NCBI RefSeq assembly: GCF_030867145.1
Contig: NC_134433.1
Location: 12,289,216-12,353,215, forward strand
Direction: 5' to 3'
DNA from: Opisthocomus hoazin
Taxonomy: Eukaryota; Chordata; Aves; Opisthocomiformes; Opisthocomidae
DNA: 64,000 bases
In this document: positions 52,536 to 55,500 of the stretch, one piece after another
Layout: each line of letters starts with the position of its first letter
Numbering within the stretch: the first letter of the stretch is position 1
Translations under genes and position numbers: made by a program
Notes under the pieces: model-generated
Database searches by the model: none
Seen by the model: the letters and a program-made list of their open reading frames with translations, nothing else
Told to the model about the DNA's origin: nothing

Positions 52536-55500
52536 CTAGTCCGTGCCGTTGGTGAACTGGCAGAGTTTGTTCTCCAGGTCGGAGATGCGCTTCTCCTGCA
52601 CTTGGACCATCTCCTTCAGGGCACGGATCTCCTCCAGCACCTCCTCCAGGGCTGGCCGCTGCGGGGGGGGGGGACACACACACGGGGTCACCGGGGAACC
52701 CCCTCCAGCCTCCCCAAACCCCACCCCAGGAGCGGGGACAGCCCCGTCACCATGTCCCCAGCCCCGGGACACTCACGGAGATGTCGGGGTCGCAGGTGGA
52801 GTGACCGCGGCGGGGGCCCGGGGGGGGCTTGTTGTCCAGAATGTTCTTCTTGACCACCTTCAGCTCCCGGTTCTTGACGGGGACGTAGCCGTCCCGCAGC
52901 GAGATGAGGATGGGCTCCGCATCCTTCCCCGACAGCCACTCGTCCGCCTCCAGGGCCGGCTCGGGGCCCGGCGTGTCGGGGTACAGGTCATCCTGGAAGA
53001 GGTCTGACTGCAGGGACGAGGGAGGCAGCGGTAAGATGGGGCGTGTGTCCCCCCTAGATCCCCCATGTCCCCCGGGACCCCAGTGGGCTCACCTTGCGTG
53101 GCACCGTCATGACGATGGGCTCGCACTTGCGCTCGTGCAGCTTGAAGAACCTGCATGGGACAAGGGTGGTCAGGGTCCGGCCATCCCCCCCCCCCGACCC
53201 TGGGAGTGCTGGTGGGTGACAGGTTAACCATGAGCCAGCAGTGTGCCCTGGCTGCCAAGAAGGCCAATGGGATCCTGGGGTGCATCAAGAGGAGTGCGGC
53301 CAGCAGGTCGAGGGAGGTTCTCCTTCCCCTCTGCTCTGCCCTGGTGAGGCCTCATCTGGAGCACTCTGTCCAGTTCTGGGCTCCCCAGTTCAAGAGAGAT
53401 GAGGAGCTACTGGAGAGAGTCCAGCGGAGGGCTATGAGGATGATGAGGGGACTGGAGCATCTCTCCTGTGAGGAGAAGCTGAGGGAGCTGGGCTTGTTTA
53501 GCCTGCGGGAGGACCTGATCAATGCTTACAAATATCTGCAGGGTGGGTGTCAGGAGGACGGGGCCAGACTCTGTTCAGTGGTGCCCAGTGACAGGACAAG
53601 GGGCAACGGGCACAAACTGAAGCAGAGGAAGTTCCGTCTGAACATGAGGAAGAACTTCTTCCCTCTGAGGGTGACGGAGCCCCGGCCCAGGCTGCCCAGG
53701 GAGGCTGTGGAGTCTCCTTCTCTGGAGATATTCCAGACTCGCCTGGACGTGGTGCTGTGCAGCCTGCTCTGGGTGACCCTGCTTCGGCAGGGGGTTGGAC
53801 TGGGTGACCCACAAAGGTCCCTTCCAACCCCCACCATTAATTCTGTGATTCTGTGATTCTGTTATCCCCCCCCGGCTCCCCCCAGCTCTCACCTGGCGAT
53901 CTCGCACTTGCTGACGTCCAGCCCGCGCTTGGGCATGAAGCCCATGCCCCGCTGCGGCTCCTTGCTGCTGTAGGTGTTCAGGTAGTGCACGTAGGGAGCC
54001 TCGTCCGTGATCTCGAAGTACCGGATGCTGCTGTCACCCTGCGGGTGGGGGGACGGGTGTCAGCCAGCCCCTGGAACCCCCAGGGCAGTGGTGGCATGGG
54101 GACGGGCGCGCCCCCAGGGTGGGGGTTACCTTCCCGCAGAGGTAGACGATGCTGGAGTCGGGGTCGTAGAAGGGCAGCAGGACGCCGTTGCTGGTGTCCA
54201 TCTCCTGCAGGGCGATGGGCTCCTCGAAGTTGTTCTGTGGGGCCGGAGTGGTGGTGGTGGGGTGAGCAGTGGCCCCGAAACCCCCACCCTGGTTAGTCAC
54301 ACGCGTTAGCCACGGCACACTGTGGGGACGGGGCTCGTCCCCCCCCGGGGTACACAGCCCCGGGCAGGCAGCTCGGCATGCCCCCCCGCACCCCCTCCTG
54401 CTCACCCACATGGCCGGGTGCACCCCAGCCCGGCCCCCCCCAGCCCCCTCCCCACGCCCAGCACAGCACCGCACACTTGGGAACTTGGCATCTTTTTTTG
54501 GGAGAGGATGCAGCGGACACCCCACCCCGGGTGGGGGGGCATAGGGACTCGGGGGGGGGGGCCAAGTTCCCGGGGCAGCACTCCATGCAGCCTGGTTACC
54601 GGGTCCCACAAGCCCAGCTCCCGCTGGCTCATTCTGGTAAAGCCCGTGGTAAAGATGTGTCCTTCCCGCGTGAAGATGGCCCGCACGGGCCTCAGCCCTT
54701 CGTGGGGGGCAAACCTCTCCTGGGGGGGAGGGGGAGAGAGTCAGCACGGGGCAGAGGACGGGGTGAAAATGGCGGGGGGGGGGTCCGGATCTGTCCCCCA
54801 ATACGACTGCTGAGTCCTGCTCCCGGGGTGTGCGTGAGGCTGTCAGGGCACAGGAGTGGCCGGAGAGCATCCCCGGCTCCGCGGGGTCCCCGGGACGGCG
54901 CTGGCCGGGCGGGAGCCGCCGTCGCGTACCAGGTCCCAGAGGCCCAGCTGGCGCTCGCTCATCTTGCTGAAGCCGGTGGTGAAGATCTTGCCATCGGCCA
55001 CGAAGATGGCGCGGATGGGGCGGGCGCCGTCGTGCGGTTTGTCTTTCTCCTGCGCCGGTCGTTAGCGGGTTAAAACCAAAGACAGAGACGCGCGGGTGCG
55101 GGCGGTTAGTGGGGTCAGGCAGGCATGGGATGGGGACCCGGTGGTGGGACGGTGGGGGGACGCGGCGGGGGTCACTCACCGCCACGACCTGCTGCTTGCG
55201 GGGGTCGATGACGCGGACCTTCTTGTCCTTGCAGGTGGTGACAAGGAGGCTGCCGGTGCGGTTCCAGCCCACGTTGTAGATGAGGTCGGTGTGGATGTCC
55301 TCCAGCGCCAGCAGCATCTCCCCCGTGCCCACGTTCCAGAGGATCACCAGGTTGTCGCAGCCTGCGGAGGACCGACGGGGCGGACGCCATCACCTCACGG
55401 ACCCCCCCAACCCCGGGGAGGGTGACCCGGGAGCCCCTTACCCGCGCTGAGCAGGACGTTGCGGGCGGTGGGGTGCCACGAGATGATGCCCACCCGCTTG

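Follow-up and report, generated by a model that had tools for sequence, protein, structure and literature searches.

Two adjacent exons of equal length, found in one gene of a 64-kb stretch of hoazin DNA (the entire stretch analyzed, referred to here as the window), raise the question of whether they serve as alternatives, how a choice between them would be made, and which of the two is older. The gene lies on the minus strand and has the following coding layout (window coordinates).

52536..56953, minus strand: entire CORO6 coding region (ATG through the stop codon), with ten coding exons plus an alternative eleventh
56953-56756, 56138-56016, 55571-55442, and 55361-55180, minus strand: coding exons before the pair
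54930..55049, minus strand: exon A (5a-like; 120 nt; phase 0/0; 40 residues), the type nearer CORO1A, CORO1B, and CORO1C
54600..54719, minus strand: exon B (5b-like; 120 nt; phase 0/0; 40 residues), the diverged type
54234-54130, 54038-53893, 53150-53093, 53007-52777, and 52658-52536 (stop), minus strand: coding exons after the pair

The gene is CORO6, which encodes a type I coronin. All of its introns begin with GT and end with AG, and the protein is 471 residues long with either exon A or exon B. In a search of solved structures, Coronin-6 (7KYX, which we take to be the human protein) was the best match for both isoform A (845 bits, followed by Coronin-1C, 811; Coronin-1B, 774; and Coronin-1A, 715) and isoform B (840 bits, followed by 802, 764, and 704, respectively), although its chain (409 residues) is shorter than those of 1C and 1B. 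The Pfam models DUF1899 (the coronin N-terminal domain), WD40, and WD40_4 all scored above their cut-offs, while the C-terminal coiled coil (residues 440 to 462; window 52980-53150) matched Trimer_CC at 21.7 bits, under the cut-off of 27. On the plus strand, CORO6 has a gene of the ANKRD13 family as its tail-to-tail neighbor (window 44000-51000), which ends approximately 1.6 kb from the CORO6 stop. Ank, ANKRD13_C, and UIM_2 were detected by Pfam in four of the six plus-strand pieces scanned (about 47.4 to 51.0 kb), a result that does not distinguish between paralogues; presumably, the neighbor is ANKRD13B, which lies beside CORO6 on the human map. The assignment to CORO6 is based on the structure match together with this family of neighbor. 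A pattern search for relatives of the CORO6 protein returned no match in viral contigs and seven matches, none of them a relative, in bacterial and archaeal genomes.

The first-pass annotation had described the pair as two adjacent 120-nt exons, in phase 0 on both sides, with 25 of 40 residues identical, and these coordinates and counts proved exact. At the DNA level, 80 of 120 bases are identical, and the differences fall on 11 first, 9 second, and 20 third codon positions (of 40 each). A rough NG86 estimate gave a dN of 0.32 and a dS of 1.11. The likeness was also detected independently, in the form of a direct repeat of 111 nt with 71% identity and a spacing of 330. When the 40 residues of exon A were slid without gaps along all six frames of the window (BLOSUM62), A itself scored 212, exon B scored 146, and the next best site scored 17; the top score of 20,000 shuffled versions of B against A was 27. 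Chance similarity is thus ruled out. Local alignment of the introns flanking A with those flanking B gave scores within the shuffled range, and a duplication extending into the introns was rejected on this basis. Given that the flanks are dissimilar, the duplication is old.

The pair itself has been known since 2011. According to the CORO6 section of Eckert et al. (2011; PMC3203266), exons 5a and 5b of this gene (their coronin-1D) are mutually exclusive in all tetrapods, and swapping them exchanges almost the whole fourth WD repeat (i.e., blade five of the propeller). Exons A and B are this 5a/5b pair: the gene is the same, the exons are adjacent, homologous alternatives, and both stand at the position of the fifth coding exon. 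The first-pass annotation, which had called them duplicated and probably mutually exclusive, therefore agrees with that account. There is no essential difference between the hoazin pair and the published one, and the CORO6 section of that paper gives no regulators. It also reports a mammalian variant with an extra glutamine at the last exon (PMC3203266). The exon 11 acceptor of the hoazin gene (52659-52664) has no NAGNAG by eye, so this variant is probably absent here. What is added below (i.e., the anatomy of the splice sites in this genome, an argument that A is ancestral, and a testable model of a muscle switch) is small in each case.

Comparable, classical mutually exclusive pairs occur in PKM (exons 9 and 10) and FGFR2 (exons 8, IIIb and IIIc), where homologous exons likewise stand in tandem, are equal in phase, and are chosen according to tissue. 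These are other genes with other regulators, and exclusion in CORO6 differs in that neither frame nor intron length enforces it. Exons A and B do share phase, length, homology, and adjacency, the traits of mutually exclusive exons that arise by tandem duplication. However, we found no built-in block to joint inclusion in the form of a frameshift, a too-short intron, or mixed spliceosome types. A transcript with both exons would encode 511 aa and one with neither would encode 431 aa, with the frame kept in all forms; enforcement by frame was thus rejected. The intron between A and B is 210 nt long, the likely branch point of B lies 189 nt from the donor of A, and both introns are of the GT-AG type, making steric hindrance unlikely. 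These results lower the claim that exclusion is hard-wired, but they do not lower the claim that the choice is regulated.

The same observations bear on the reading that A and B are alternative without being mutually exclusive (i.e., that B or A behaves as a cassette exon, with transcripts carrying both or neither in some tissues). The 511-aa and 431-aa forms, being in frame, would escape nonsense-mediated decay; the intron length and the distance from donor to branch point make a simple steric block unlikely; and the passages of the mouse papers cited below report exon 5 skipping and exon inclusion. Against these points, Eckert et al. describe the pair as mutually exclusive in all tetrapods in the section cited (PMC3203266), the solved Coronin-6 chain (7KYX) holds a single copy of the segment, which is of the A type, and adding or removing most of a propeller blade would be expected to fold poorly. 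We regard cassette use as possible but rather unlikely; strict exclusion of one exon by the other is presumed for this genome.

The duplexes of the A and B donors with the 5' end of U1 (-4.1 and -5.2, respectively) are the two weakest of ten, a feature that the first-pass annotation had not noted; the next donors of the gene stand at -6.5 and -6.6, and the best stands at -11.1. The acceptors occupy the two extremes. Over positions -20 to -3, the A acceptor is 56% pyrimidine with a single T, the lowest of 10 acceptors, whereas the B acceptor is 100% pyrimidine, the highest. The poor tract of A and the strong tract of B had been noted from the sequence at the outset and are confirmed by these values. 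The branch points of the two acceptor regions were called from the branch-point consensus.

55050..55089, minus strand: exon A acceptor region, with the likely branch point TTTTAAC (A about 21 nt upstream) and a further TAAC at -15
54720..54759, minus strand: exon B acceptor region, with a branch-point-like CTGAC (A 22 nt upstream)

This profile suits exons under regulation better than constitutive ones. The earlier suggestion that the differing acceptors reflect a regulated choice is reasonable, and it fits the published Rbm24-dependent Coro6 exon of mouse muscle and heart, as described in the passages of the papers cited below. The weak U1 pairing at both donors and the poor acceptor of A would also suit a pair of which one copy (B or A) is dead or hardly used any longer in this lineage. 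This we consider very improbable: neither reading frame is interrupted, both exons keep their GT-AG sites, the rough dN and dS values indicate constraint in the history of the pair, the A-type segment is present in the solved Coronin-6 construct (7KYX), and the CORO6 section of PMC3203266 describes the pair for all tetrapods.

If the choice is regulated, candidate elements might be present in the introns around the pair. Four motifs on the minus strand are of interest.

55105..55110, minus strand: ACTAAC, a QKI-type motif upstream of A, starting at -61
54584..54589, minus strand: TGCATG, an RBFOX-type motif at +11 to +16 past the exon B donor
54579..54583, minus strand: GAGTG, an RBM24-type motif (G[A/U]GUG) at +17 past the exon B donor
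54292..54297, minus strand: ACTAAC, a QKI-type motif downstream of B, at +303

The P values given for motifs here are nominal, coming from about 90 motif-intron tests in a single genome. The two ACTAAC sites had shuffle P values of 0.013 (upstream of A) and 0.023 (downstream of B) in their respective introns, and ACTAAY occurs in exactly 2 of the 10 CORO6 introns, namely, the two outer introns flanking the pair. The shorter TAAY was found three times before A (0.40 expected; P = 0.001) and three times after B (0.57 expected; P = 0.009), one of the latter being the donor itself, and was not found between A and B; as a control, the repeat-bearing intron between exons 8 and 9 also holds three (P = 0.016). 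The TAAC sites may be plain branch points. For TGCATG after B, a motif chosen post hoc, the shuffle P value was 0.098 for an occurrence anywhere in the intron, and 0.009 occurrences are expected per 40 nt at the rate of the window. RBM24-type motifs, taken as G(A/U)GUG from PMC6538757, were not enriched after B relative to other introns (the B-E7, E2-E3, and E10-E11 introns hold four each), nor was GTGTG (3 versus 1.96 expected; P = 0.31). Among the listed open-access papers that mention CORO6 together with QKI or RBFOX, judged by their titles and, for PMC8584187, PMC7203132, and PMC6538757, also by passages, we found no link of QKI or RBFOX to CORO6 splicing.

Regulation of Coro6 by Rbm24 has been shown in the mouse. 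Passages from several papers report that, in satellite cells, regenerating muscle, and heart, a Coro6 exon specific to muscle is included less often once Rbm24 is knocked down or lost (PMC4849150, PMC8093301, PMC7203132, PMC5359592, and PMC6538757), and one of these words the effect of the loss as more skipping of Coro6 exon 5. According to further passages, Coro6 splicing in the adult heart was unchanged by Rbm24 overexpression (PMC6076270), by heterozygous loss of Rbm24 (PMC7203132), and by loss of Rbm38 (PMC5574583). The mouse exon resembles exon B in that it belongs to the same gene, is called muscle specific and once exon 5, and RBM24-type motifs follow B here. It differs in that the passages describe inclusion or skipping with no swap and do not specify 5a or 5b. 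The mouse gels resolve isoforms by size, as far as the passages describe them, and thus fit poorly with a swap of two exons of 120 nt each; "exon 5" in those papers may be something other than B. We infer that the Rbm24-dependent exon corresponds to B, while the mouse data, as excerpted, support muscle regulation of the region and are no proof for B itself.

On balance, we think it fairly probable that an old tandem duplication supplied two in-frame versions of blade five, one of which is used per transcript, and that muscle factors promote B. The model would run as follows. A single 120-nt exon would have been duplicated in tandem long ago, giving two versions of blade five in the seven-bladed coronin propeller. 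With both donors weak, A and B would each depend on help. A, with its poor acceptor, would be the version used by default in tissues other than striated muscle. RBFOX and RBM24, presumed to act in muscle and heart just past the weak donor of B, would there bring in U1 and favor B, and bound QKI at UAAC sites around the branch point of A may concurrently block A. A fuller version is considerably more doubtful. It holds that three factors form a muscle switch, in which QKI would silence A (through UAAC at the A branch point), RBFOX and RBM24 (through TGCATG-GAGTG at +11 to +21) together with a distal QKI site would activate B, exclusion would be enforced at both ends, the swap would tune coronin for the actin of striated muscle, and A would be the ancestral exon, lost in ray-finned fishes.

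The first-pass annotation also stated that the exchange alters the charge of a propeller blade, which did not hold for the sum: the net charge (K/R minus D/E) is +1 for both segments, and the charges have been moved. In a paper on coronin-7, the propeller domains are reported to bind filaments, but none of its passages considered here assigns this to a face or residue of blade five.

The remaining question is which exon is older. The CORO6 section of Eckert et al. left two datings undecided (i.e., 5a arose after the split of fishes and tetrapods, or it was lost in fishes) and stated that fish CORO6 exon 5 is more 5b-like (PMC3203266). The earlier observation that A resembles other type I coronins was borne out: of its 40 residues, A shares 29, 30, and 27 with CORO1C, CORO1B, and CORO1A, respectively, and B shares 24, 26, and 24. 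At the 15 positions at which A and B differ, 23 of the 45 position-paralogue cells agree with A and 11 agree with B; counted by position, 11 favor A and 4 favor B. The three paralogues unanimously carry the residue of A at three positions (S28, E32, and Q34, all absent from B) and that of B at two (7 and 29). Because the A-type segment of 7KYX shares the paralogue residue at both of the latter, the bird A probably changed there. Of the 15 differing positions, 7KYX matches A in seven, B in four, and neither in the remaining four. A tree of the 40-residue segment with six rows had no strongly supported fork.

Two datings were weighed on this evidence, both on the assumption that Eckert's 5a is the upstream exon and with the fish likeness taken from the statement in PMC3203266. 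Under the first alternative of Eckert et al., exon A derived from B after the split. A single B-type exon could then be ancestral in CORO6, as the fish exon would suggest. However, a later copy of B would need to regain S28, E32, and Q34, and A is nearer to the paralogues at 11 of the 15 differing positions. This objection is weakened by the two positions (7 and 29) at which the paralogues side with B and by the tree without a strong fork. We consider a late origin of A quite unlikely. If 5a is the upstream exon, the paralogue comparison and the statement on fishes together favor the older dating, in which the duplication would precede the split of fishes and tetrapods and A would have been lost in fishes.

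In the first place, these data add one more genome to the published CORO6 exon pair. If the proposed reading is true, a blade swap in muscle, perhaps through RBFOX, RBM24, and QKI jointly, would provide a muscle version of CORO6, the consequences of which for actin or for the anchoring of acetylcholine receptors could be measured, and the dating left undecided in the 2011 paper (PMC3203266) would be settled. CORO6 is reported to have a role in such receptor anchoring.

Other features of the window were also recorded. Seven long open frames, picked from 443 in a search for further neighboring genes, gave nothing with Pfam. Pieces that we take by eye to be CR1-like retroelements lie at 53200-53870 (minus-strand view), in the intron between CORO6 exons 8 and 9, and at 49840-49960, in an intron of the ANKRD13-family gene; such repeats point to a bird or reptile. 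The first intron of CORO6 contains a degenerate tandem array at 58211-59002 (11-nt unit; 72.5 copies; 62% matches), within which a higher period of 55 nt spans 58364-58799.
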